Assembly: GCF_021184045.1 (NCBI RefSeq) | Contig: NZ_CP073710.1 | Coordinates: 620,001 to 684,000, forward strand | Direction: 5' to 3' | From: Methanococcoides orientis | GTDB lineage: Archaea > Halobacteriota > Methanosarcinia > Methanosarcinales > Methanosarcinaceae | Length of the DNA: 64,000 bases | Shown here: positions 3,216 through 18,434 of the stretch, piece by piece | How positions within the stretch are numbered: position 1 is the first letter of the stretch | Layout: the number at the start of each line of letters is the position of its first letter | The notes under the pieces: generated by a model | Databases searched by the model: none | What the model was told of the DNA's origin: nothing | What the model saw: only the letters and a program-made list of their open reading frames with translations | Program-made: the position numbers and the translations under genes

Positions 3216-4808
3216 TCAATTCTTAGTTCCGTAGCACTTCTCAAGGTGATCCACTGCTGGCGGGGTCGTAACAAGACTTACACCAATTGCAACCAGCATT
3301 GCCAGAGGGGTTGCCACAAGGATTGGATCGATAACTGTCCATGTTCCTGTAAGTAATGTCTCTGTGCCAAAGAGTGCCTGGCAGATGCCAAGAGGTGCTG
3401 CTTCCTTTGCATGGACGAAAGTGAGCCAGAAAAGGCTGCTGAAAGTACCAACGATAAGACTTGCAATTGCACCTTCTTTTGTCATTCTCTTCCAGAACAG
3501 TGCACCCATATAAGTTGGGAGGAAAGCTGCTGCACAAAGTCCGAAGAATATAGCAGTAGCCCTTGCAATGATGCTTATAGGCAAAATGTATGCAAGGATG
3601 ACACTGACAAGGATGGCCACTGAGATACCGATCTTTGTAACATCCACGGTCTTTCCTGCATTCCCCCTCATCATGAACTCGCGATAGAAGTCGTGTCCGA
3701 TGGCTGTTCCCATTGTGTGGAACTGTGAGCTAAGGGTTGACATTGCAGCTGCAAGCAAGGTTATCATGAAGACGATAACAAACATTTCAGGCATTGCACT
3801 GTTGATGTATTCAGGCATGATGACGTCCATGTTTCCTTTTGCAACTTCAATGGCAAGCATTCCGGTAGTATTAAAGAAATAAACGTTTGAAAGTCCACCT
3901 ACGATGTATGCGACACCTGCCATCATGAGGATGAAAGGGCCACCAGCGAAGACTGCCCTGTTCAGGGATTTCTTACTGTCAACGGTCATGAACCTTACCG
4001 CAAGCTGTGGCTGTGCAAGCACACCAATGCCAACACCGAGGATGATGGTTGATACCATTGTCCACCAAATAGGAGAGCCGAATACCGGCATTGCTGTCCA
4101 TCCCTGATGACCACCTGCAGCCAGTGATTCAGGTACAAGTGGTGCAAGATTAGTGAGTGCCTGATGAGCTTCAACGATACCGCCAAGTTTTGCATAGGTA
4201 AGTGCGAGAAGAACTGCCATACCACCAAGCATAAGGGTTCCCTGAAGTGCATCGGTATACATAACAGCAAGCAATCCGCCTGTGATAACATAGGCAGCAA
4301 CAATAACTGTCAGGATAAGGATCGCAATATTATAGTCAACGGAAAGTGCGGTTTCCATGAACCTTGCACCACCGATAAGGACAATTCCTGCATAAAGAGG
4401 CATGAACAAAGCGATAAGAGCTCCGGAATAACCCTGAATGAAACGTGACTGGAACCGTCTTCCCAGAAGTTCAGGGAATGTAACAGCATTAAGGTTCACG
4501 CCAATGCTTCTTGTCCTTTTTCCAAATACGACAAAAGCGATGAAAATACCTACAAATATGTTCATGAATACGAGCCAGAGGGTTCCCAGACCAAGCGTTC
4601 CTGTCACACCGCCAAAACCGATGATCGCAGCTGTACTGATAAATGCTGCACCATAGGAAAGTGCGAGAATGTAAGGATTGACCTTTCTTCCGGCGAGCAT
4701 GTAGTCGTCGACCTCTTTAGTTCTCCTGTATGCAAGCCAGCCGCAATAGAAAACGGCGAGCATATAGATCAGGACAAATATTCCCAGGGTTGAAGTACTG
4801 ACCGCCAT
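3216..4808 (-). CDS. Sodium:solute symporter (SSS family), copy 1
   Basis: A 530-residue protein with about 13 membrane helices, of the SSS family (PutP, PanF and ActP relatives). Visible family features are the N-terminal helix after MAVSTST, the YMLAGRKVNPYILALSYGAAF segment of the sodium-binding first core helices, GGLLAVMYTDALQG, and the STLSSQFHTMGTAIGHDFYR segment. It should import an organic solute with Na+. The substrate is not deducible; small organic acids or osmolytes are typical for the family. A 39-residue one-helix gene lies 1 nt upstream in the same unit. Two further copies of this pair lie at 54877-58583, and all three proteins are of nearly equal length and closely similar. 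Confidence 0.88.
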   Translation of the reverse strand: MAVSTSTLGIFVLIYMLAVFYCGWLAYRRTKEVDDYMLAGRKVNPYILALSYGAAFISTAAIIGFGGVTGTLGLGTLWLVFMNIFVGIFIAFVVFGKRTRSIGVNLNAVTFPELLGRRFQSRFIQGYSGALIALFMPLYAGIVLIGGARFMETALSVDYNIAILILTVIVAAYVITGGLLAVMYTDALQGTLMLGGMAVLLALTYAKLGGIVEAHQALTNLAPLVPESLAAGGHQGWTAMPVFGSPIWWTMVSTIILGVGIGVLAQPQLAVRFMTVDSKKSLNRAVFAGGPFILMMAGVAYIVGGLSNVYFFNTTGMLAIEVAKGNMDVIMPEYINSAMPEMFVIVFMITLLAAAMSTLSSQFHTMGTAIGHDFYREFMMRGNAGKTVDVTKIGISVAILVSVILAYILPISIIARATAIFFGLCAAAFLPTYMGALFWKRMTKEGAIASLIVGTFSSLFWLTFVHAKEAAPLGICQALFGTETLLTGTWTVIDPILVATPLAMLVAIGVSLVTTPPAVDHLEKCYGTKN

Positions 4809-4809
4809 C

Positions 4810-4929
4810 TTAGCACTCCTCGTCCTCTTCTTCGTTCCACTTTAAAAGCCCATATACCATACATCCCAGTGCACTTACGATGCACAGGACATAGGCCAAC
4901 CATATCTGAGGGTCATCAATACCTAACAT
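4810..4929 (-). CDS. Symporter small accessory protein, copy 1
   Basis: A 39-residue protein starting MLGIDDPQIWLAYVLCIVSA, with one membrane helix (about residues 9-28), a basic/aromatic LLKW boundary and an acidic tail (EEEDEEC). Near-identical proteins precede the two other symporter copies (56463-56576 and 58464-58583), so the short start at 4929 is right and the longer frame to 5004 is not. Its stop is 1 nt before the symporter ATG, implying cotranslation and probably 1:1 assembly. Single-helix partners of SSS transporters are known in archaeal annotation as small accessory proteins; their function is not established. Confidence 0.85.
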   Translation of the reverse strand: MLGIDDPQIWLAYVLCIVSALGCMVYGLLKWNEEEDEEC

Positions 4930-5233: not shown

Positions 5234-6139
5234 ATGAAAAAAATAACAGGCATTTTAATTATTATTTTACTTATATCAACCCTGGGAATGGGTTGTGTTG
5301 GATCAACTGAAGACACAGACATTGGTGAACAGGAAGATCAAATAATCGTAGAAGAGCACAGTGAGCTATTTTCCCAGAAACAGGAAAGAATAGACCTGGT
5401 CAATGCTGCTATTGAGCTGATAGATGAAAAAGGAGAACTTGCATTTCCTGAATTCAGAGAAAAGGACAGCCAGTGGTACAATAATAATTCCTACATCACC
5501 GTCTGGAAGACTGAAGGAATACGTGTTGTCTTCCCTCCTAAAGTAAATGGTGAAGGCGGGAGTGTACTCGATCTTGAAGATTATAACGGTGAACCATTAG
5601 GCAGGATGATTATTGAGACTGCTTTAAGCGAAGATGGCGAGGGATGGGTAAATTATTACTGGCCAAAACCAGGTGAGACCGCTCCTTCCAAGAAATCTAC
5701 TTTCGTCAAGAGAACTACCATCGGCAACGAGACATATCTTGTGCATTCAGGTTTTTACGTCAATGACTACACCTATAATAAAAACCTCGAAGACATTGAT
5801 GATATCAACTACTTTGGAGAAGCAACCATTAGAAATCTGATCAATCCGAATAGAGTTGATATGGGTCTGGATATAGACTACAGCATTGCACACTTTATAA
5901 TCAAACCAGGTGATTTCCTTGAGCCACTTATTATGAAGAACCCGGAAACATATTATGTTCTTGAGGGTGAAGGTATTCTCTACATAGAAGATGTGCCGTT
6001 TGAACTTAGGAAAGGACAACTTGTCCTTGTACCTGAAAACGCAAAGCAGCACATGGAGAACACCGGAGATGTTGACCTTGAGTTCCTTGCTATAAACGAG
6101 CCTGCCTGGAAACCAGAGCACGAGATAATTCTGGAGTGA
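5234..6139 (+). CDS. Cache-cupin lipoprotein, copy 1
   Basis: A 301-residue exported lipoprotein. Residues 1-21 are a signal peptide ending in the lipobox-like LGMGC (lipidated Cys about 21). Residues about 45-180 resemble a single Cache sensor domain: QKQERIDLVNAAIELIDEKG, a WKTEGIRVVFPP strand, and GEGWVNYYWPKPG. Residues about 215-300 form a cupin_2 barrel (YSIAHFIIKPGD, ETYYVLEGEGILYIED, VPENAKQHMENTGD). The usual first cupin metal histidines are not obvious: the conserved strand reads KPGDFLEPLIMKN. The protein should sit outside the membrane and bind a small ligand. A close paralogue lies at 12652. Transcription ends at a hairpin that includes its stop codon. Confidence 0.75.
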   Translation: MKKITGILIIILLISTLGMGCVGSTEDTDIGEQEDQIIVEEHSELFSQKQERIDLVNAAIELIDEKGELAFPEFREKDSQWYNNNSYITVWKTEGIRVVFPPKVNGEGGSVLDLEDYNGEPLGRMIIETALSEDGEGWVNYYWPKPGETAPSKKSTFVKRTTIGNETYLVHSGFYVNDYTYNKNLEDIDDINYFGEATIRNLINPNRVDMGLDIDYSIAHFIIKPGDFLEPLIMKNPETYYVLEGEGILYIEDVPFELRKGQLVLVPENAKQHMENTGDVDLEFLAINEPAWKPEHEIILE

Positions 6140-6330: not shown

Positions 6331-6515
6331 AATCTCAAATATTTCTTCTTCAAATATCAATTACTTAGAATAAATATTGTATCTCAGGTAGAAGTACTTC
6401 TTTCTATTCACAAGAATCTCTAAATTATTATTCTTGTAGTTAGTCTATTTTCAGCAGCAATCAATATATATATATTTTTACAGGTATACTACTCATCCAG
6501 TTATTGAGGTGTACT

Positions 6516-9500
6516 ATGAAAAAATCTATGCTATTGGGAAATTTATTGCTTGCGTGTTGTCTTGTACTGATATTGCTATCAACTTCCTGTAATGCAGCAG
6601 GTATTGACCAGAACGCAGTTCCAAATTCGAATGAATCCTCTGCTTCAAAAATATCCATAGCACCCCTCAATCCTGCATTCGTCCAGTACCAGGAAGAACT
6701 GGAAAAGAGCCAGAATGATTATTCGATAAATTCAGTTACTATTTCAAGTCTCACATTATCAGATAGTTCTGGTGATGTCTCATCCAAGGATATTTTAAAC
6801 AGCATCCATGTTTTACAGGATGATGAGTTAGCTGGAAATATCGTACATCCAACCGGAATAATTCCTTCTCCTGTAGATTTATCTCACCTTTCACCTGTGA
6901 ATATGGAAGAATTTGTGGCAAGCGAAGAGTATGGATTTAGATCTTCCGGTGTCATGACAACTGGCACGGCGAGTTATCCTTCCCGCTACGACCTGCGTGA
7001 CAACAATGGTGTCACAGAAATAAGGGATCAGGGCAATGCCGGTAGTTGCTGGGCGCATTCAGGTATGGCTTCCCTGGAATCCTATCTTTTGCACAGCAGG
7101 TCAGAGGACTGGGACTTTTCTGAGAATAATGCCAAGAATACTTTAGTATATTTTAATCAAGATGGATTTGACCGTCCTCATTACGGTGAGGGCCTGGACC
7201 TGTTTACAGCTGCCTATCTGACCAGATGGGATGGTCCGGTGCTTGAGTCCGATGATCCTTATAATGACCTTTCAGGATCATCTCCCTCTGATACAACTGT
7301 AGCAAAACATGTCCAAGAGATCATGATACTTCCGGGGATAAACACTTCGGATAATCTCTTCAAATGGATACTCACTGATTATGGTGCAATCTCCGTGGGC
7401 ATGTGGCATGATAACTCATTCTTTAATTCGGATAACAATAGTTATTATTGCTACGACGATGTTGACTACCCGTGGATGAATCATTATGTAACTTTAGTCG
7501 GATGGGATGACAATTTTGACAGGCATAACTTCACTCCTGCAGCACCGGGGAACGGAGCTTTTATTATAAAGAATTCCTGGGGTGATAGCTGGGGTGAAGA
7601 TGGCTATTTCTATATATCCTACTATGACAGTGTAGTTGGATCCGATAAAGGGCCAGAGGGATTAGGTACTAAACCTTATATTTCTAATTTCATGTTCACG
7701 GCAGAAAATGTAAGTAACTATGACCATATCTACCAGTACGATTCACTTGGATGGGCTGCCTGCACAGGTTATAATAATACTACAGCATACGGTGCAAATA
7801 TTTTCACGGCAAGCTCTAACGAGACTCTGGAAGCAGTGAGCTTCTATACTGTGGACTCTAACTCATTCTATAACATCTCTGTCTATCTGGACCCGAAAGA
7901 TGGCCCGGTAAACAGTTCCGCCCTTGTTTCTGTAAAGAATGGTAGTATTCCCATTGCCGGCTACCATACAATCGATCTCGATGACAATGTTTCAATCCAG
8001 ACAGGACAAAATTTCTCAGTGGTAGTACAATTTACAACCCTGGATTATAATAATCCCATTGCAATTGAAATGGTAATACCTGGGTTCAGCAGCAATGCCC
8101 ATGCAGAAACAGGCCAGAGTTATATGAGCCTTAATGGTACCGAGTGGGAAGACATATCCGAATATAACAAGAACGCCTGCATAAAGGCTTTCACAACAGA
8201 AGAAAAAAAGCCAGAGGCAGGATTTGTAGCAGGTACAAGGTATGTCCATGTGAATGAAACCGTAGATTTCCACGATGCAAGTCTTTATTCTCCGGATACA
8301 TGGCAATGGGACTTCGGTGACAATTCCACATCAGTAGCTCAAAATCCTCTGCACACTTATTCAGATCCGGGCAGGTATAATGTTTCTCTAAACGCATCAA
8401 ATGCTTTTGGTAGTAACATCTCATTAAAAAGCTCTTTTGTTCATGTAGTTAATTCGACCATTGTTGTGAACAGTAGTGGAACTGCTGATTTCACAACCAT
8501 TGATGAAGCTATATGTGCTGCATCAAGTGGTGATACGATAGTGGTTGAGCCGGGTAATTATAATGAGAAACTCCAGTTCACAGGTGATAACATTAGCCTT
8601 GTTTCATCTAGTGGCAACCCTGCAGATGTTAGTGTAATCTCTCCTGATTCCAAAGACCGTACGATCGTTATAATAGCGGATAATATCACAATTTCCAGCA
8701 TAAATGTTTCAGGTGGTTCTTGGGGGATATATGTTGATGAATCAAGTGGATGTAACATAACTAACTGCTATGTCTCGGATAATTTCATTGGCATCCATAT
8801 GTATTCTTCACAGAACAACGACATATCGAATTGTACTATGCTGGACAATGGATTTGGATTAATGGTACAACGATCTGGTAACAATTATTTTGCAGACAAC
8901 TCCTTGGTCGATAATATCTTAGATTGTATGTTTGATTCAGAACCGAATGCCGTGAGTACGAGCAATACAATTGATGGCAAGCCCATCTACTATCTCGTGA
9001 ACAGTTCTGATGTGATAATCGATCCTGCTTCAAATGCCGGGCTTGTACATCTCATCGGTTGCTCGAATATAACTGTGCAGGATATATTTATTGAAAATAA
9101 TTTCTATGGTTTTTACCTTCACAATAGCAGCAATATCACGATTAAAAACTGCACAGCTAATGTTAACGCGTATGGTGTCCATCTTTCCTCTTCCGACGAA
9201 AATACGATGTATGGTTGCAATATAAGCGACAACATAATCGATGGAATCTCACTCACAGGATCAAGTGGCAATCTGATCTATAACAACTATTTCAACAATA
9301 TTTTCAGCAATGTACATGTTTCCGGTGGTGCGTCCAATGAATGGAATACTGCAATGACCACTGGTAGCAATATCATCAATGGAACTTATCTTGGAGGTAA
9401 TTTCTGGGCAAAGTCGGATGGCACGGGCTGGAGTCAAACGCATGATTCCGTTGGAAATGGTTTTTGTCAGGAGTATGATATAACGGATGATGGAAACAAC

Positions 9501-10274
9501 ACCGACCTTCTTCCGCTGACCAGTAATGAAGAACAGCAAGCAATAGTTGTTGAAAGCAATGCCCGGAATGACAATGACGGAATACGCATTCGGGTTGCCT
9601 CCAGCACCGTATCTGCTGCAAATGTAGCTGCAATGGATTCAAACGTCAAGTTTGTAGGAAGGAATGCTGAGGTGCAGTATGTCTTTACTAATAAGAACAC
9701 ACCTGTCACTGACATACGCTTTGAAGCAGAAACAAATGAAGGGTACGTCATGGCGACTGTTAATCTATTAAATGAGCAGCCGGAAAGTGCACCTGCATCT
9801 CCATCAGTGAGAGTATATCAGAGTATGGATATTGTTCTGGGGGATGAAAGATTATCATCTTCAGGCTTTATGGATGAAGCGACAATAGGATTTGCTGTCT
9901 CAAAAGAATGGATCATATCAAATGACATTGATGAAAATAGCATCCGTATGGAACACTATTCTGATGGTGTCTGGGATCGATTGCCCACTACTGTGGCATA
10001 CGAGGATGACGGCAATATATATTTTGAGGCTATAACAACAGGTTTCTCGCCTTTTATTATCTGTGCAGATATCGTTAATGAAAATATTAATAGTAAAGGT
10101 CCAGACGCAAATATTCCTGTGCTTGAGGATGATATGTCAGTAGGAGCCAGCGAAGAAGTCCAGTATACTGTTAAAGATGAGATAAATGGTAAACTATTGC
10201 TTTTGCTTGCATTAATACTGGTTGCATTCTTTGGTTCCATGTATTATAGAAAGAGATCAAACGGAAAAATATGA
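6516..10274 (+). CDS. Large surface papain-like cysteine protease with lectin-like, PKD, beta-helix and PGF-pre-PGF domains
   Basis: A 1252-residue exported protein. A signal peptide covers about residues 1-30. Residues about 150-380 are a C1A papain-like domain with the full catalytic set: Gln172 and Cys178 in DQGNAGSCWAHS, His323 in MNHYVTLVGWDD, Asn353 in IIKNSWGDSWGEDGYF. Next come a lectin-like beta domain (about 395-545), a PKD domain (about 568-650, WQWDFGDNSTS), a right-handed beta-helix of the NosD type (about 655-985, repeated N-I-T-I-x-N-C turns), a PGF-pre-PGF-like domain (about 1010-1175, ending TTGFSPFIICAD) and a C-terminal helix (about 1225-1243) with a basic tail. The start at 6516 has GAGGTG 4 nt upstream; an in-frame TTG at 6504 is less likely. 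It is probably cell-wall anchored and acts on external peptides. Confidence 0.85.
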   Translation: MKKSMLLGNLLLACCLVLILLSTSCNAAGIDQNAVPNSNESSASKISIAPLNPAFVQYQEELEKSQNDYSINSVTISSLTLSDSSGDVSSKDILNSIHVLQDDELAGNIVHPTGIIPSPVDLSHLSPVNMEEFVASEEYGFRSSGVMTTGTASYPSRYDLRDNNGVTEIRDQGNAGSCWAHSGMASLESYLLHSRSEDWDFSENNAKNTLVYFNQDGFDRPHYGEGLDLFTAAYLTRWDGPVLESDDPYNDLSGSSPSDTTVAKHVQEIMILPGINTSDNLFKWILTDYGAISVGMWHDNSFFNSDNNSYYCYDDVDYPWMNHYVTLVGWDDNFDRHNFTPAAPGNGAFIIKNSWGDSWGEDGYFYISYYDSVVGSDKGPEGLGTKPYISNFMFTAENVSNYDHIYQYDSLGWAACTGYNNTTAYGANIFTASSNETLEAVSFYTVDSNSFYNISVYLDPKDGPVNSSALVSVKNGSIPIAGYHTIDLDDNVSIQTGQNFSVVVQFTTLDYNNPIAIEMVIPGFSSNAHAETGQSYMSLNGTEWEDISEYNKNACIKAFTTEEKKPEAGFVAGTRYVHVNETVDFHDASLYSPDTWQWDFGDNSTSVAQNPLHTYSDPGRYNVSLNASNAFGSNISLKSSFVHVVNSTIVVNSSGTADFTTIDEAICAASSGDTIVVEPGNYNEKLQFTGDNISLVSSSGNPADVSVISPDSKDRTIVIIADNITISSINVSGGSWGIYVDESSGCNITNCYVSDNFIGIHMYSSQNNDISNCTMLDNGFGLMVQRSGNNYFADNSLVDNILDCMFDSEPNAVSTSNTIDGKPIYYLVNSSDVIIDPASNAGLVHLIGCSNITVQDIFIENNFYGFYLHNSSNITIKNCTANVNAYGVHLSSSDENTMYGCNISDNIIDGISLTGSSGNLIYNNYFNNIFSNVHVSGGASNEWNTAMTTGSNIINGTYLGGNFWAKSDGTGWSQTHDSVGNGFCQEYDITDDGNNTDLLPLTSNEEQQAIVVESNARNDNDGIRIRVASSTVSAANVAAMDSNVKFVGRNAEVQYVFTNKNTPVTDIRFEAETNEGYVMATVNLLNEQPESAPASPSVRVYQSMDIVLGDERLSSSGFMDEATIGFAVSKEWIISNDIDENSIRMEHYSDGVWDRLPTTVAYEDDGNIYFEAITTGFSPFIICADIVNENINSKGPDANIPVLEDDMSVGASEEVQYTVKDEINGKLLLLLALILVAFFGSMYYRKRSNGKI

Positions 10275-12490: not shown

Positions 12491-12651
12491 CCATTAGCAA
12501 ATCGATATTTTAGAAAATGAACCCAGTTCTTTTTTAAAATAAAAAACTGATGAATGAACCATATACAATAATTATATATTAAGAAAGAAGGCTTAATGCA
12601 ATTTAAAATAAAATTCCAAATATTATTTTTAAATTGTACGGGTGTAATAAT

Positions 12652-13560
12652 ATGAGTGAACTAAAAAAGATACTTTGCGTTCTGTCCATGGCAATTCTGT
12701 TGCTGGCAGCTGCAGGCTGTGTGCAGCCAGATAATACAGAAATGAGTGAACAGGAAGAACAAATAGTCATAGAAGCGCAGAATGATCTATTATCCCTGAA
12801 ACAGGAAAGAATAGCCCTTGTCAATGCTGCTATTGAACTGATCGATGAAAAAGGAGAGCTTGCATTTCCTGAATTCAGAGAGAACAACAGTCAGTGGTAT
12901 CATAATGATTCCTACATAACCATCTGGAAGGCTGAAGGAATACGTGTTGTCTACCCTCCTAAAGCAAGCGGTGAGGGTGAGGATGTGAAAGATCTTGAAG
13001 ATTATAACGGTAAACCGTTCGGCAGGATGTTCATAGACACTGCTTTAAGTGAAGAGGGTGAGGGATGGGTTCATTATTACTGGCCAAAACCTGGCGAGAT
13101 TTCTCCTTCCAAGAAGTGTACATTCATCAAGAGAACTACTATCGATAACCAGACATACCTTGTGAATTCCGGCTTTTATCTCGATGACTACATTTACACC
13201 AATGATCTTGAAGATCTTGAACACTTCAGTCGTTTTGGAGACGTTTTTATTGGTAATTTGTTCCACCCTGAAACAACTGATAAAGAATTGGAAGTCAATT
13301 ACAGTATTGCTCATGTGATAATTAAGCCAGGTAAGTCCATTGGACCTCACATGATGACAAATCCTGAGGTATATTATATCCTTGAAGGCGAAGGTGTGCT
13401 CTACATAGAAGATGTACCATTTGAACTGAGCAAAGGAAAGCTTGTTCACATACCTGCTAATTCAAAACAATCCACGGAGAACACAGGGGATGTTGACCTT
13501 GAATTCTTTGCTATAAACGAGCCTGCCTGGGCAGAAGAGAATGAGGAAATGGTGGAGTGA
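12652..13560 (+). CDS. Cache-cupin lipoprotein, copy 2
   Basis: A 302-residue paralogue of the protein at 5234, collinear over its whole length: lipoprotein signal ending LAAAGC, Cache-like domain (LVNAAIELIDEKGELAFPEF, WKAEGIRVVYPP, GEGWVHYYWPKPGE) and a C-terminal cupin. The cupin strand reads IKPGKSIGPHMMTNPEVYYI, so it has a histidine (GPHMM) that copy 1 lacks, which may mark a difference in metal binding. The start at 12652 has GGGTG about 7 nt upstream and replaces a longer frame from 12634. DNA identity between copies is high in the Cache part and lower in the linker near residues 185-210. It is convergent with the DUF1673 array, with a 43-nt gap. Confidence 0.75.
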   Translation: MSELKKILCVLSMAILLLAAAGCVQPDNTEMSEQEEQIVIEAQNDLLSLKQERIALVNAAIELIDEKGELAFPEFRENNSQWYHNDSYITIWKAEGIRVVYPPKASGEGEDVKDLEDYNGKPFGRMFIDTALSEEGEGWVHYYWPKPGEISPSKKCTFIKRTTIDNQTYLVNSGFYLDDYIYTNDLEDLEHFSRFGDVFIGNLFHPETTDKELEVNYSIAHVIIKPGKSIGPHMMTNPEVYYILEGEGVLYIEDVPFELSKGKLVHIPANSKQSTENTGDVDLEFFAINEPAWAEENEEMVE

Positions 13561-13603: not shown

Positions 13604-14335
13604 TTACGCTGTCTTCCTGTAGTGTTCAATAGCATCCTCTATTTCGGATGCTGTTACCTCATCAGTTATAAGCGAATAATAAGGACTCAATTTATACCAT
13701 CTCTTATTTTTGTATTCGATGTACAATTGTGTATCCAAATTGTAGTAATCTTTTTTCTGTTTTTGATATACAAACAGGGATAATGGCAACAGTGGGATCA
13801 TTGATAGAATTGTTCGCCATTCCCCCAGCATGACCATATGTGTAACTATTGCAAAAACGATTACAAAAGCTATGCATTTCAACATCAGAAGTGTTTTCTT
13901 TGAGTGCTCTACAAGCTTGTTGGAAATGATGGAACTAATCTCACTGTGGTTTAATGTAATATTTTTCATCCCGATGGAACTTAAATGCACACCAGAATCA
14001 TTGACCAAAATACTTGCCTGAAAGCTCCTAGATACAATGAAAAAGTAGAAAACATACACCACGGACACAATGATTAGATAATTCAAAAGACCAAGACTTG
14101 AAGGAAGACGAAACAACACACTCAATCCTGCTATTAGGAAAGCAGTATACAAGCTGCTATTGGTTGGAAAGATTACGTTAGCAGATCGGAACTGTCGAAT
14201 GTTAACTGTTTTACCCAAAGAACTTGCAGACTGGAAATCCGGTGAGCAATTTTTTTGCGGTTGTCTAAACTCTATATCTTTCACCGGACACCACCCCATA
14301 ATTTTCTTAATATTTTCTGCAAAACTATCAATCAT
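13604..14335 (-). CDS. DUF1673 family membrane protein, array member 4 (last)
   Basis: A 243-residue protein of a Methanosarcinales-specific family. The N-terminus carries the family motif KIMGWCPVKD. Two membrane helix pairs follow (about 75-120 and 165-205), with a PH-like soluble stretch between them (SGVHLSSIGMKNITLNHSEISSI), then a C-terminal soluble tail ending IEDAIEHYRKTA. It closely resembles array member 2 (15058). The start overlaps the stop of the previous gene by 4 nt (ATGA), so it is translationally coupled. Function is unknown. The helix plus soluble-domain layout recalls bacterial PH-domain membrane proteins, which is only a visual similarity. Confidence 0.7.
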   Translation of the reverse strand: MIDSFAENIKKIMGWCPVKDIEFRQPQKNCSPDFQSASSLGKTVNIRQFRSANVIFPTNSSLYTAFLIAGLSVLFRLPSSLGLLNYLIIVSVVYVFYFFIVSRSFQASILVNDSGVHLSSIGMKNITLNHSEISSIISNKLVEHSKKTLLMLKCIAFVIVFAIVTHMVMLGEWRTILSMIPLLPLSLFVYQKQKKDYYNLDTQLYIEYKNKRWYKLSPYYSLITDEVTASEIEDAIEHYRKTA

Positions 14336-15057
14336 CTCTCCAATGTCTCCTTCAGAATGTGATACTCAATATCATTTCTTGGAAATAGCGTGATGGCCTT
14401 ATTTTCAACATTTATTTTGATCGCTTTCGGACAATGGGATCTCCGGCGATTTATATAAATCATATATATATAAAGAAAATAAGGGAGCACAACCATTGTA
14501 GTATTTGATCTTATGTATTCCAATAATAGGGATTTTGTTGACAAGTTGTATAAGTACCGGGTATGCACAAAAAAGGCCAGTAGCATAACTATAATGAGCA
14601 CAATATAGAGCGGTCTTTTCCTGTACACGGTATTGTCAATAGTCTTTACTTCTTTAATCTGCTGTTTTGGAATGTTTATCGGTTTGAACAGAGGTGTTTT
14701 TATCATCAGTATTTCGGAACCAATGGAAACCCGGTTGTGATTGAACAGGAAAAAAGATGCCATCAACATAATGAGAACTAACACAAGGATAAGATGGCCT
14801 ACAGGTGTTATGGTAAACTGATCGTTAAAAACTAAAATCAGAAAAGACAAACTAAGGGTGAGTAAAATCGTTAACTGGCGCCAATCTATCATTTGGAGGG
14901 GAATATCTTTTTCCTTAATTGATTGGTTATCCATTTGACTCAGATTCATATTTTTAGATTTGAAATCCGGTGAGCAGTTCTTTTGAGCCGGTTTAAACTC
15001 GATATCTTTCATCGGACACCATCCCATCATTCTTTTGACACTTTCAAAGGATACCAT
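14332..15057 (-). CDS. DUF1673 family membrane protein, array member 3
   Basis: A 241-residue paralogue with the N-terminal RMMGWCPMKDIEF motif. It has hydrophobic segments near residues 65-105 and 150-205 and a soluble stretch between them. Its first 35 residues match member 4 closely (MGWCP, KDIEF, QKNCSPDF), but the rest is more divergent and the tail is shorter (ILKETLER). It is directly adjacent to member 2 upstream (TAA followed at once by ATG) and overlaps member 4 by 4 nt downstream. Function unknown. Confidence 0.65.
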   Translation of the reverse strand: MVSFESVKRMMGWCPMKDIEFKPAQKNCSPDFKSKNMNLSQMDNQSIKEKDIPLQMIDWRQLTILLTLSLSFLILVFNDQFTITPVGHLILVLVLIMLMASFFLFNHNRVSIGSEILMIKTPLFKPINIPKQQIKEVKTIDNTVYRKRPLYIVLIIVMLLAFFVHTRYLYNLSTKSLLLEYIRSNTTMVVLPYFLYIYMIYINRRRSHCPKAIKINVENKAITLFPRNDIEYHILKETLER

Positions 15058-15798
15058 TTACTGTGTCCTCCTATAATGGTCAATAGCATTCTGTATTTTA
15101 GATGCTGTCATCTCGTCTGTCATAATTGAATAATCAGAAGTAAGTTCATACCATCTTGTATACCGGTTTTTATTTTCATATTTGATGGATAATTGTGTCT
15201 CTATATCGTGATATTTCCCACCCAGGTTATGTTTTACAAGTAAGTATCCTGGTACGAATGAGACAATTGATATGATCATTTGCCACTCTCCGCGTATCGT
15301 TGCTGAATAAACAGCCAATGAAACAAGAGCTGATAGTGGTATTGCCAGTAGTAGAATTATTAAAACTGTAGATCTAATGCGCTTATTTGCTGTGACTGAT
15401 TTTATTTCGTTGTACTTTAATGTAATATGCTTCAGCTCAAAAGATTGTAAATGAATCCCACTTTCATCAATTAATACGTTTGATTGAATAAATTTTGTTA
15501 CAAGGAAGTAATATATGAAATACATTGCAACGATGGTAGGAATCAGGATTGTGGAACTCTCACCCCTGACTAAAAACAGAACCGCATTTAAAACTGATAC
15601 AACGATAATGAAAAACAGGGAAGTATTTGCAGGGAACATCACGTTTTCAGATTGAACCAGTTCAAGATTTGATCTGCCGGAAGGTTCGAGTGAAGTGTTT
15701 ACAAAATCAAGATCCTGATTTGATCTCAATTTCATTGAAGGTGTATTCGGGCACCACCCCATTAATTTTCGTATAGTTTCTGTCACATTTATTGTCAT
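15058..15798 (-). CDS. DUF1673 family membrane protein, array member 2
   Basis: A 246-residue paralogue starting MTINVTETIRKLMGWCPNTP. Helices lie near residues 55-100 and 150-190, with a soluble stretch between (ESGIHLQSFELKHITLKYNEIKSV) and a tail ASKIQNAIDHYRRTQ. Its ATG overlaps by 4 nt the stop of a 36-residue remnant of an HTH regulator (15795-15905). That is the same coupling seen between the intact regulator and member 1, so regulator plus DUF1673 was duplicated as a unit. Function unknown. Confidence 0.7.
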   Translation of the reverse strand: MTINVTETIRKLMGWCPNTPSMKLRSNQDLDFVNTSLEPSGRSNLELVQSENVMFPANTSLFFIIVVSVLNAVLFLVRGESSTILIPTIVAMYFIYYFLVTKFIQSNVLIDESGIHLQSFELKHITLKYNEIKSVTANKRIRSTVLIILLLAIPLSALVSLAVYSATIRGEWQMIISIVSFVPGYLLVKHNLGGKYHDIETQLSIKYENKNRYTRWYELTSDYSIMTDEMTASKIQNAIDHYRRTQ

Positions 15799-15905
15799 AC
15801 CAATCCCCTCAACTTCTCAAACAGTTCCTCTGCCAGTTTTGTAGGATCGTCCGTTTGTTCGATCTTTATCTTTATCTTCATCTCATCTGCAAAATCCCAA
15901 TGCAT
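15795..15905 (-). pseudogene. Relic of HTH regulator (C-terminal 36 residues)
   Basis: The minus strand reads MHWDFADEMKIKIKIEQTDD and ends LAEELFEKLRGLV. It matches the last residues of the intact regulator at 16294 (LLWDFADEMKIKLEQTDDPTRLAEEMFEKLRELV) with a KI insertion. The helix-turn-helix and all N-terminal sequence are missing. The remnant still begins with ATG and overlaps the next DUF1673 start by ATGA, so it may persist as a leader peptide. It is too short for a DNA-binding protein. Confidence 0.75.
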
Positions 15906-15940
15906 TTTGATAGAATTATTTTATCCTGCCACCTTTCTTT

Positions 15941-16297
15941 TCATTCACGATCGGCTTTTTCTCTATAAAGTTTCTTGAATTTCAACATAGTGAATATCCA
16001 GATTATTGCAAGACCAGATGTGCCTATAGTGAACCGATTCGCCTGCAATGAACTCATATCACTTCCTAAATAGGAAGTTAATTGCCATATTATTAAAATA
16101 GAAAGTGCAACTAATGAAAGGATAACTGTTCTTATTTCTTTTTCTGGTTTCATTTGTTCTTGGCCCCCTCTTATTCCTGAAGGTTTCAGTGAAGTGTTTG
16201 AAAAATCAATCTGCTGAGATGACTTAAATCCCCCCGCAGTTGCATTGGGACACCATCCCATGACTTTACGTATAGTTCCTGTCACATTTATTGTCAT
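15941..16297 (-). CDS. DUF1673 family membrane protein, short form, array member 1
   Basis: A 118-residue protein starting MTINVTGTIRKVMGWCPNAT, with the family motif, two hydrophobic segments (about 56-75 and 88-105) and a basic tail. It lacks the inner soluble stretch, second helix pair and C-terminal tail of members 2-4, so it is either a truncated copy or a natural short form. Its start overlaps the regulator stop by 4 nt (ATGA). Its first 50 residues match member 2 closely (QIDFSNTSLKPSG versus DLDFVNTSLEPSG). Confidence 0.65.
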   Translation of the reverse strand: MTINVTGTIRKVMGWCPNATAGGFKSSQQIDFSNTSLKPSGIRGGQEQMKPEKEIRTVILSLVALSILIIWQLTSYLGSDMSSLQANRFTIGTSGLAIIWIFTMLKFKKLYREKADRE

Positions 16298-16740
16298 ACT
16301 AACTCCCTCAATTTCTCAAACATTTCCTCCGCCAATCTTGTAGGATCGTCCGTCTGTTCGAGCTTGATCTTCATCTCATCTGCAAAATCCCAGAGCAATT
16401 CCATGCACTCCTTGTACCTGCTGCATTCATTGCAATCTCCTTCGTGCTCATACCACACCTGAACGCCATTTTTTTCAGAAATAAAAATCAAGGCATCAAC
16501 ATTCAGAGGAATTGACTGGCCGAACAATATGCCCCGTTCAACGTTCATACGTTCCACATGGATCTGGTTTGACCTTGCCATCTCAAGCAATAAATTTTCA
16601 ACACGTTTGTCCATTCCAATAAGTGCCCGGGATACTGCTTGTCTGGAGATGTTGAACGAGTGTGCGATATTGATGTTGCGGGATCCACTCCTTCGTAGTT
16701 TCCAGAACTCGAACTGTCTATCTCCTGTTGGAAGGAACAT
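16294..16740 (-). CDS. HTH transcriptional regulator leading the DUF1673 array
   Basis: A 148-residue protein. Residues about 10-45 form a helix-turn-helix (FWKLRRSGSRNINIAHSFN, ISRQAVSRALIGMDKRVENLL). The middle resembles a small beta domain (IPLNVDALIFISEKNGVQVWYEHE). It is followed by three cysteines in C-x2-C-x5-C spacing (GDCNECSRYKEC), which suggests a metal or redox site. It overlaps the following DUF1673 gene by ATGA, so the pair is made together and the array is probably autoregulated. A second copy of its 3' end survives at 15795. Confidence 0.7.
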   Translation of the reverse strand: MFLPTGDRQFEFWKLRRSGSRNINIAHSFNISRQAVSRALIGMDKRVENLLLEMARSNQIHVERMNVERGILFGQSIPLNVDALIFISEKNGVQVWYEHEGDCNECSRYKECMELLWDFADEMKIKLEQTDDPTRLAEEMFEKLRELV

Positions 16741-16997
16741 ATGTCAACATATGTATGTTTACTATAAATACATTATTAATTTATTTTACTATTATACAAA
16801 ACAAATCAGTAAAATTATCATTAATTTAATCTCATCCAATTATTTATGTATGTCTTTGATAATTAAAAATTATATTGAACTTAATAATTTGATGAAATGG
16901 GCATAAAATTATTATAATGAACTGCTATGCTATAAAGTAAAGACTTTTAAAATGAATAAATGATAAAATTGAATATAATCAGAAGGAAGGCATGCAA

Positions 16998-17288
16998 ATG
17001 AGCAAAAGTGATTCAGAATGGATGGTTGCCGGACTTATTGTATTCTTTGCGATGATTGTTTTTGCATATCACATAGGCCAACTGCTATGGGGAATAATCC
17101 TAATAGCTCTTGTTTTCTGGATGCTCATGTTGGCTGACTGTCTGCGAAGAGGGACAGATAGTTTCCCCGGCAAAGGAGAGTATGACAAATTTATCTGGTC
17201 GGCTGCCTTAATTTTTCTGAATTTCATAGGTGCGATCTTGTATTATTATCTGGTTCGGAAGCAGGATATCATTGGAGAAATATCATGA
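16998..17288 (+). CDS. PLDc_N-like small membrane protein
   Basis: A 96-residue protein with three hydrophobic helices. The last two form a PLDc_N-type domain: a helix ending WMLMLADCLRR, a FPGKGEYDKFIWS loop, and FLNFIGAILYYYLVRK. PLDc_N is the two-helix region found before phospholipase D-like catalytic domains, but it also occurs alone as here. The start at 16998 has GGAAGG 7 nt upstream; an ATG at 16992 is too close. The stop overlaps the next gene by 4 nt. The last 46 residues are nearly repeated in the K+ channel gene at 17666. Confidence 0.7.
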   Translation: MSKSDSEWMVAGLIVFFAMIVFAYHIGQLLWGIILIALVFWMLMLADCLRRGTDSFPGKGEYDKFIWSAALIFLNFIGAILYYYLVRKQDIIGEIS

Positions 17289-17656
17289 GCAAGGAAACTG
17301 CAATAATATTGGGGGCAAGTGGAGGAATCTTCGGAGTTGGTGCTTCTGCAATTACATTTTTGGTTGCAGCGTACAATTTCGGATTTGGAAGCAGGATCAT
17401 AGACTATGCTCCCAGTCAGGTTTTTGGAATTGCAAACTTTATAGTCCTGGGTTTAGGTCTCATAGCACTGGCATTAAGCATGATTGGAATTGCAGGCTCG
17501 GTTGTTGCTAGAACGGACAAGAAGAAAGGTGCTAAATTAATGCTGGCATCAGGTATATTTGGTTTCTTCCTTCTCTTTGCATTGTGGATCATGCCGGGAA
17601 TACTGCTCACTGCCGGTGGAATTATAGCAATGCGTACGGACGAAGGAACTATGTAA
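17285..17656 (+). CDS. DUF4064 family membrane protein
   Basis: A 123-residue protein with four hydrophobic segments and the glycine-rich pattern of DUF4064: an ILGASGGIFGVGASAITFLV start, LGLIALALSMIGIAGSVVAR in the middle, and GILLTAGGIIAMRTDEG at the end. It is coupled by ATGA overlap to the PLDc_N gene before it and followed after 9 nt by the channel gene, so the three form one unit. Function is unknown; the family is common in bacteria and archaea as small membrane proteins. Confidence 0.65.
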   Translation: MSKETAIILGASGGIFGVGASAITFLVAAYNFGFGSRIIDYAPSQVFGIANFIVLGLGLIALALSMIGIAGSVVARTDKKKGAKLMLASGIFGFFLLFALWIMPGILLTAGGIIAMRTDEGTM

Positions 17657-17665
17657 AAATAAATC

Positions 17666-18157
17666 GTGGAATTTGATCAAATGCATAATCATTTTTTTAA
17701 AAGATTTCAACCAAGAAATTGCTCAAAATTAATTCAATTTATATTTTTGATGTTGTCCCTTACAGTAATCTCAGGTGTCCTGATGTACTTTGTCGAAGGG
17801 GCAACTCGTGGATTTAGCAGTATACCAAAAAGCATCTACTGGGCTATTACAACATTTACAACTGTAGGGTATGGGGATATAATTCCACAAACTGATACTG
17901 GCAGAACAATTCACTCTTTCATAAGAATATTAGGCATAAGCACACCATTTATAATTATTGGATCAGCTTTTGTTTTCCTGTTCAAAATGCTGATCGACTG
18001 CCTCCAGAGACCTTTGGAAGACTTCCCACAAGGGGAAAGATATGATAAGTTGATCTGGTCTCTTGCAATCATCTTCCTGAATTTCATTGGTGCGGTCTTG
18101 TATTACTATCTGGTTCGGAATCAGGATAACAATGAAAATTACATAAGTAAAAAATGA
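17666..18157 (+). CDS. Two-helix K+ channel fused to PLDc_N
   Basis: A 163-residue membrane protein. Helix 1 is about residues 24-45. A pore loop with the complete selectivity filter TTFTTVGYGDI follows at about 65-75. Helix 2 (about 95-115) then runs directly into a PLDc_N domain (LIDCLQRPLEDFPQGERYDK, FLNFIGAVLYYYLVRN). The start is GTG at 17666 or ATG at 17681; no clear ribosome binding site decides between them. The filter predicts K+ conduction as a tetramer. The C-terminal 46 residues and their DNA are very similar to the gene at 16998, so this is a local fusion. It lacks any RCK or other known regulatory domain. Confidence 0.75.
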   Translation: MEFDQMHNHFFKRFQPRNCSKLIQFIFLMLSLTVISGVLMYFVEGATRGFSSIPKSIYWAITTFTTVGYGDIIPQTDTGRTIHSFIRILGISTPFIIIGSAFVFLFKMLIDCLQRPLEDFPQGERYDKLIWSLAIIFLNFIGAVLYYYLVRNQDNNENYISKK

Positions 18158-18168
18158 AAGAGGTTTAA

Positions 18169-18330
18169 ATGACTAGATGACCAATAAAAGCAATGATTTT
18201 AGGACTACAAATTGTGTTGTTGGGTGGATTCATGATCATTGATACTTCAACCAACTTGAATGGCATTGAATGCCTGATAATTCTAGCCGGATTATTTGTC
18301 AGTCTTGGTGGGTATATTCGTGATGTTTGA
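18169..18330 (+). pseudogene. Small membrane protein interrupted by an in-frame TGA
   Basis: A strong ribosome binding site (AAAGAGGT) precedes an ATG at 18169 that reads MTR and then TGA. The same frame continues PIKAMILGLQIVLLGG... to a stop at 18330, giving a two-helix hydrophobic protein. Without the TGA the product would be 52 residues. An internal ATG at 18193 gives 45 residues but has no ribosome binding site. Either a nonsense mutation inactivated the gene or translation reinitiates at 18193. It follows the channel gene by 11 nt. Confidence 0.5.
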
Positions 18331-18434
18331 AAATAAACTTACATACAATTGATGAATAGTGGCGATACAGGCTATGGATTTAGATTATTACATCCATTTG
18401 CTACTATAATAAAACCTAATCCTGAAAAAGTACT

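Follow-up and report, generated by a model that had tools for sequence, protein, structure and literature searches.

Gene organisation of the locus

The window (i.e. the whole stretch of DNA that was analysed, 64,000 nucleotides) comprises bases 620001-684000 of the single-contig, 2.49 Mb genome of Methanococcoides orientis (G000). On its plus strand, three tightly spaced genes in an operon-like arrangement encode a stand-alone PLDc_N protein, a DUF4064 protein and a K+ channel to which PLDc_N is fused within one open reading frame. The stand-alone PLDc_N gene (16992..17288, +, 98 aa; PF13396, E 5.3e-7, 29.9 bits, above cut-off) encodes an additional N-terminal hydrophobic stretch (judged by eye), followed by the PLDc_N hairpin; an earlier, sequence-only reading of this DNA had recognised the gene, but its start lies at 16992 rather than at 16998. 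The start of the DUF4064 gene (17285..17656, +, 123 aa; PF13273, E 4e-7, 30.6 bits, slightly below the cut-off of 32.1) overlaps the PLDc_N stop codon (ATGA). The fused gene (+), with its Ion_trans_2 and PLDc_N parts, begins either at GTG 17666 (163 aa) or at ATG 17681 (158 aa) and ends at 18157. The five codons upstream of the ATG (VEFDQ) are found in G009 as well, and an ATG occupies the equivalent place in G008, which favours GTG 17666 as the probable start; residues are numbered here from ATG 17681 (the 158-aa form).

A divergent gene at 16294..16740 (-) encodes an N-terminus that is HTH-like by eye and a CxxCxxxxxC stretch. Its product gave no match in a Pfam search at E 0.01; the gene is retained beside the operon in G004, G006 and G009, and its product is possibly a regulator. 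Further along (13604-16297, -) lies an array of DUF1673 (MGWCP) membrane genes, three of them over the Pfam cut-off and one weak; DUF1673 appears in a passage of PMC4158269 in a list of families expanded in the 'dark matter islands' of Methanosarcina. A small hydrophobic ORF lies 3' of the channel (18181-18330, +); the 45-aa frame inside it had no Pfam match at E 1, and its sole homologue among 111 family genomes, in G121, is interrupted by stops.

The two parts of the fused channel and the helix they share

The channel-derived part (residues 1-87; 17681..17941, +) is 54-58% identical to the unfused channels of the genus and matches Ion_trans_2 with E 2.6e-15 (56.5 bits versus a cut-off of 22.5, over residues 23-100 in a numbering that begins one residue later). 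It holds the first transmembrane (TM) helix, the pore helix, the selectivity filter TVGYGD (residues 61-66) and the first half of the second helix, including the hinge glycine Gly85. The S1-S4 voltage sensor of six-helix voltage-gated K+ channels is absent, the ORF having only about 16-21 residues before TM1. Of the 32 alignment columns that are invariant in ten other channels, 26 are retained, and three of the six losses are residues 91-93 in the junction, where the VPT of these channels is replaced by I-I-I. The V-P-T/PVP inner-helix motif is thereby absent, although a gapped alignment suggests that Pro89 may be its shifted counterpart. Against three relatives the pore part has a dN/dS of 0.19-0.23, with dS near saturation, and much of the history behind this value may predate the fusion. 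Judged by its sequence, the gene thus appears to encode an intact, pore-only K+ channel; three further Ion_trans_2 genes are present in the genome.

The PLDc_N-derived part (residues 96-149; 17966..18127, +) consists of the C-terminal half of the second helix, a short loop and a third helix. It scores 27.0 bits against PF13396 (cut-off 23.3; E 4.4e-6; profile positions 7-38 of 42), far above what chance would give. Of the 15 residues that do not vary among 23 stand-alone copies (not counting the distant L001), it also retains 14; the one loss, W100L, falls in the helix common to channel and PLDc_N. The DCLQR...KLIW...G..LYYYLV pattern is shared with the stand-alone PLDc_N (PF13396) proteins, from which the fusion differs in that channel sequence takes the place of the extra N-terminal stretch and of the first half of helix 1. 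A complete PLDc_N helix 1 is therefore absent, helix 1 being a chimera with channel TM2, and for this reason the part is better called a PLDc_N-derived hairpin than a whole PLDc_N protein. A catalytic PLD domain was not found in the 158-aa protein (no Pfam or NCBIfam match at E 1), and a PDB sequence search with stand-alone PLDc_N returned nothing below E 0.013.

Between the two parts lies a junction zone within the second helix (residues 88-95; 17942..17965, +). Compared with the unfused channels of the genus, the protein is channel up to about residue 87 and PLDc_N from about residue 96. When each residue of the fused TM2 was compared with 24 PLDc_N helices and with 57 channel helices (out of 73 distinct ones, 16 being dropped as out of register), a single breakpoint scored best before residue 92, with several points from 88 to 96 scoring nearly equally. 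The BLAST match to channels reaches about residue 104, with a gap, while that to PLDc_N (L017) reaches back to residue 84 and so ends beside the hinge glycine. Both families can be aligned across this stretch, which places the junction to a zone and not to a single base. On these alignments, the splice lies about 3-11 residues past the hinge glycine, inside the second helix, and consequently the inner-gate half of TM2 derives from PLDc_N helix 1.

Structure prediction is in line with this. The AF2 monomer model (11 sequences; mean pLDDT 75.6) has helices at residues 3-39, 48-60, 72-109 and 119-157, of which the first three form the TM - pore helix - TM fold, and a single-sequence model (pLDDT 59.7) likewise has one helix at 72-112. 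That the second pore helix passes straight into the PLDc_N helix, as the sequence-only reading had claimed, is thus borne out both by the unbroken helix 72-109, with no separate helix for PLDc_N helix 1 in the AF2 model, and by the comparison with unfused relatives. Along this helix the block means of AF2 confidence drop from 90 to 71, the values from residue 91 onward being about 62-74, and about 62-73 over residues 91-120. The model matches K+ channel pores in Foldseek, and VIA-align superposes 91 residues on 4h33 at Z 12.7 and rmsd 2.6, and model 10-110 on residues 22-124 of KcsA entries at Z about 11.7; for helical models a Z below about 13 may lack specificity, but in this case the sequence points the same way. 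In the overlay I93, F97 and F101 fall at T107, A111 and V115 of KcsA, residues that line its gate. Helix 119-157 had no fold match in a structure comparison that barely covered this part.

Distribution and origin of the fusion

A search for the same fusion elsewhere, as the sequence-only reading had proposed, found both halves matched in one of 60 relatives (E up to 1e-6), one of 237 class genomes (among the matches listed, E up to 1e-10) and one of 392 phylum genomes (residues 56-158, E up to 1e-9), which was G000 itself each time; the three sets share genomes, and fusions in distant sequences may have escaped these searches. When the window and all 178 loci were scanned for frames that combine GYGD with a PLDc_N motif, the window gene alone came up. 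A peptide-pattern search that included bacteria gave 36 loci, none with both motifs in one frame, and Methanolobus halotolerans as the nearest named relative of the channel. Several candidates were rejected on inspection: G015, G020, G033, G133 and the second G155 locus, as well as G022, G208 and G233 (with matches past residue 105), have a channel and no PLDc_N match at E 0.01, while G050, G070, G084 and G186, together with G046, G054, G058, G100 and G109 (all early-start or long-frame PLDc_N matches), have no channel match. Phages and viral contigs gave no matches, and plasmids gave four records, none covering 80% of the query, with the matches on its first 60 residues.

Among the 11 genomes of the genus, one has the fusion, three (G005, G008 and G009, the last at two loci) have an unfused channel of 115-120 aa in the order PLDc_N - DUF4064 - channel, and three have the PLDc_N - DUF4064 pair without the channel; in G001, G002, G007 and G010 no channel of this type was found at E 1e-6. 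All five channel loci found in the genus hence adjoin PLDc_N and DUF4064, and at the loci checked outside the genus neither was found alongside the short channels. The unfused channels of G005, G008 and G009 share with the fused gene an orthologous pore part, the gene order and the start region, but they end after TM2 and carry no PLDc_N. One of the two G009 copies (L098, around 4500-4870), which is the copy flanked, as in the window, by the HTH and DUF1673 genes, has an in-frame TGA shortly before the first TM helix and is likely broken or restarted downstream. In the sisters G003, G004 and G006, counterparts of the stand-alone PLDc_N gene lie, with DUF4064 in one to three copies and without a channel, beside the same macrodomain gene, which is 90-91% identical. 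In G004 (L096, 2309-3350, -), three tandem DUF4064 genes stand where the window has one DUF4064 gene and the fused channel.

In the pore tree the fused channel groups with the operon channels of the genus (81/74), and the clade that contains them (96/97, starred) is one of short channels; 2 of the 28 listed loci (L077 and L167) were missed by the motif and left out of this tree. Its branch is 0.76 long, versus about 0.17-0.24 for the genus relatives. The likeliest course of events would seem to be that an unfused channel came first, was joined to PLDc_N in the G000 line and disappeared from the sisters.

Less clear is where the PLDc_N part came from. The sequence-only reading had taken it for a near-match to the separate PLDc_N gene upstream and thus for the product of a local gene fusion. 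The similarity is real, as in a search of the genome's proteins the upstream gene matches query residues 91-148 with E 5.1e-18 and 64% identity, but near-match overstates it, since over 48 codons 32 of 48 residues and 99 of 144 bases (69%) agree (34/66 bases over codons 1-22 and 65/78 over the remaining 26). In fact, the other PLDc_N copies match the fused domain about equally well (60-73% of amino acids and 61-69% of DNA, the distant L001 excluded). The fusion stands, while its being local does not follow, since other copies come as close to the domain as the neighbour does. In the PLDc_N tree (55 columns) the fused copy falls in another PLDc_N subgroup, with L103, L017, L093, L033 and L034 (94/90, not starred), on a long end branch. 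The 3' end is ambiguous: in its last 28 codons the fused domain agrees equally with the neighbour and with the G003 copy (69/84 each), although of 24 copies compared only the neighbour shares the codons GTT CGG near the end of the fused gene. A recent duplication of the upstream gene was accordingly rejected as a simple account, with identities and tree against it and the last codons ambiguous. A donor via the small downstream ORF was rejected as well, as the locus of its G121 homologue has no PLDc_N, DUF4064 or channel match (E 0.01). Codon and tree data would agree with a 'DCLQRP'-type donor and, perhaps, a 3' end that the neighbour converted afterwards.

One 'DCLQRP'-type copy, in G005 (L103, 2078-3286, -; E 1.5e-7), starts a multi-helix membrane protein of about 400 aa, beyond which start no Pfam match over the cut-off was found.

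Possible role of PLDc_N in channel opening

The 5/5 gene adjacency in the genus, together with the fusion itself, suggests a functional link between PLDc_N and the channel, as the sequence-only reading had supposed, even though PLDc_N is joined to quite other domains in relatives. We tentatively prefer the reading, to which we give somewhat less than an even chance, that the protein is a K+ channel with PLDc_N helix 1 as its gate and a third helix that couples partner proteins to opening. Four fused subunits might form a K+ pore ringed by four extra helices, in which PLDc_N helix 1 would form the cytoplasmic gate (with I93, F97 and F101), while helix 2 would re-enter from the cytoplasmic face, pack on the pore and hold or move the gate. 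Helix 2 may also offer a docking surface for the co-encoded stand-alone PLDc_N and DUF4064 proteins, which in the relatives would act as separate subunits of the unfused channel. PLDc_N would then be coupled to channel gating. In favour of PLDc_N as gate, both domains score over their cut-offs in one ORF and the invariant residues of channel and PLDc_N are largely kept. Against it count the occurrence in one genome, the long branch (which drift could also give), the modest AF2 confidence from residue 91 on, the lack of the channel in the sisters, the short channels outside the genus without PLDc_N or DUF4064 at the loci checked, and the separate PLDc_N gene that remains, meaning that the fusion did not replace PLDc_N.

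The orientation of PLDc_N in the membrane is a further difficulty. In K+ channels TM2 runs from outside to inside, so that the loop following residue 110 would be expected in the cytoplasm, with helix 2 leading back outside. In L171 (G054) and L173 (G109), PLDc_N is followed by a hydrophobic stretch, a proline-rich linker and a TIG match (20.8 and 22.0 bits, respectively, versus a cut-off of 20.9). Such a TIG-like domain is usually exported, and if it is so here, helix 1 of these proteins would run from inside to outside. Perhaps PLDc_N can insert in both orientations, or else one of the two readings is wrong; as the orientation suggested by L171 and L173 opposes the simple reading, our confidence in PLDc_N helix 1 as gate was lowered to the level given above.

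Of the alternatives, a passive anchor fares best, although we still consider it rather unlikely. The channel would then work, with PLDc_N having replaced the old tail and the third helix stabilising or placing the subunit and taking no part in opening. We know of no catalytic residues in PLDc_N, filter and hinge are intact, and PLDc_N is joined elsewhere to a DUF1673 segment (G004, G006) and to TIG-like domains (G054, G109), much like a general membrane module; the splice, however, lies in the gate half of TM2 and not behind the gate, so that the gate itself is altered.

Somewhat less probable still is that the gene is an accidental product of recombination heading for loss, as the channel has seemingly been lost in the sisters. 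G003, G004 and G006 indeed have PLDc_N - DUF4064 at the same place without the channel, and the in-frame stop in one G009 copy, the long branch and the single genome point the same way. Yet the ORF is intact, the splice is in frame, the invariants are retained (26/32 and 14/15) and dN/dS is low, though with the reservation on its history made above.

That the protein has no pore function of its own and regulates other K+ channels, as an assembly factor or dominant-negative subunit making PLDc_N-PLDc_N contacts with the stand-alone PLDc_N/DUF4064 proteins, is very unlikely. The genome does have three other Ion_trans_2 genes and has kept a separate PLDc_N gene, but the TVGYGD filter and pore helix are fully kept, which would be needless in a non-conducting subunit. 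An artefact of sequencing or assembly that joined two neighbouring genes, a possibility that the sequence-only reading had allowed for, is hardly credible: it has in its favour the occurrence in one genome and nothing beyond that, whereas the genome is a single contig and neither the channel tail nor the front half of PLDc_N left a convincing trace in any frame of 17657-18434 (best E 0.046, antisense). As both are missing without trace, a single indel does not account for the junction, two independent losses at one in-frame point would be required, and a sequencing slip behind the fusion appears unlikely.

Known systems resemble the fused channel in part. Among archaeal and bacterial Kv-type channels, that of Methanolobus halotolerans (L040) and the pore of Lmo2059 (4h33) share with it the pore helix, TVGYGD and the hinge glycine, but L040 has S1-S4 and a zinc-ribbon-like tail, and its VPT inner-gate motif is replaced in the fused channel. 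In ionotropic glutamate receptors the M4 helix follows the pore-lining helix. This is an analogy for a membrane helix placed after the pore-lining one (a GluA1/A2 chain, 7ocd, gives Z 11.7 over the pore); these receptors have an inverted pore and ligand-binding domains, and no homology to PLDc_N is claimed. A literature search for a role of PLDc_N found none, the term being mostly paired with Leishmania, presumably because of a plasmid of similar name. The component families are known, but the search found no K+ channel with PLDc_N, we know of none described, and the combination is to our knowledge new. In one passage of PMC3581485 SHOCT is said to accompany PLDc_N often, and a passage of PMC12505970 describes AuxB of S. 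aureus, a DUF4064 member, as a membrane protein of four helices with GpsB and PknB as binding partners.

PLDc_N is a common, widespread and unexplained membrane domain, and its fusion to a channel of known fold provides a testable lead on its role. In a wider reading, which we regard as unlikely, PLDc_N proteins are partner subunits of membrane pores, PLDc_N/DUF4064 docking on a short K+ channel and setting its gate, and here fused to it as the inner gate. In that reading the channel would owe its inner gate to a membrane domain foreign to it, an architecture of its own. The fusion also offers a natural experiment on the extent to which the inner gate of a K+ channel is exchangeable.

Other proteins with PLDc_N, and other genes of the window, were noted along the way. 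The DUF1673 MGWCP N-terminal segment is joined to PLDc_N in G004 (L096, 4338-4751, +; E 1.5e-7) and G006 (L097, 3192-3605, -; E 6.7e-7), near the same site, but here the whole PLDc_N protein is retained, with neither a shared helix nor a channel; in the window's counterpart (15941-16297) this DUF1673 start leads into another membrane part. PLDc_N begins frames of 264-309 aa in L171 (1806-2615), L173 (1708-2499) and L172 (G058; 1930-2856), followed by a hydrophobic stretch and a C-terminal domain that is TIG-like in L171 and L173 and unnamed in L172. Elsewhere in the window, two paralogues (5234-6139 and 12634-13560, +) have N-termini that resemble lipoprotein signals by eye and join a Cache sensor domain with a cupin, both genes lying in the same neighbourhood, and the gene at 6504-10274 (+) encodes an exported-looking, papain-family protease of 1256 aa with lectin-like, PKD and NosD beta-helix parts.
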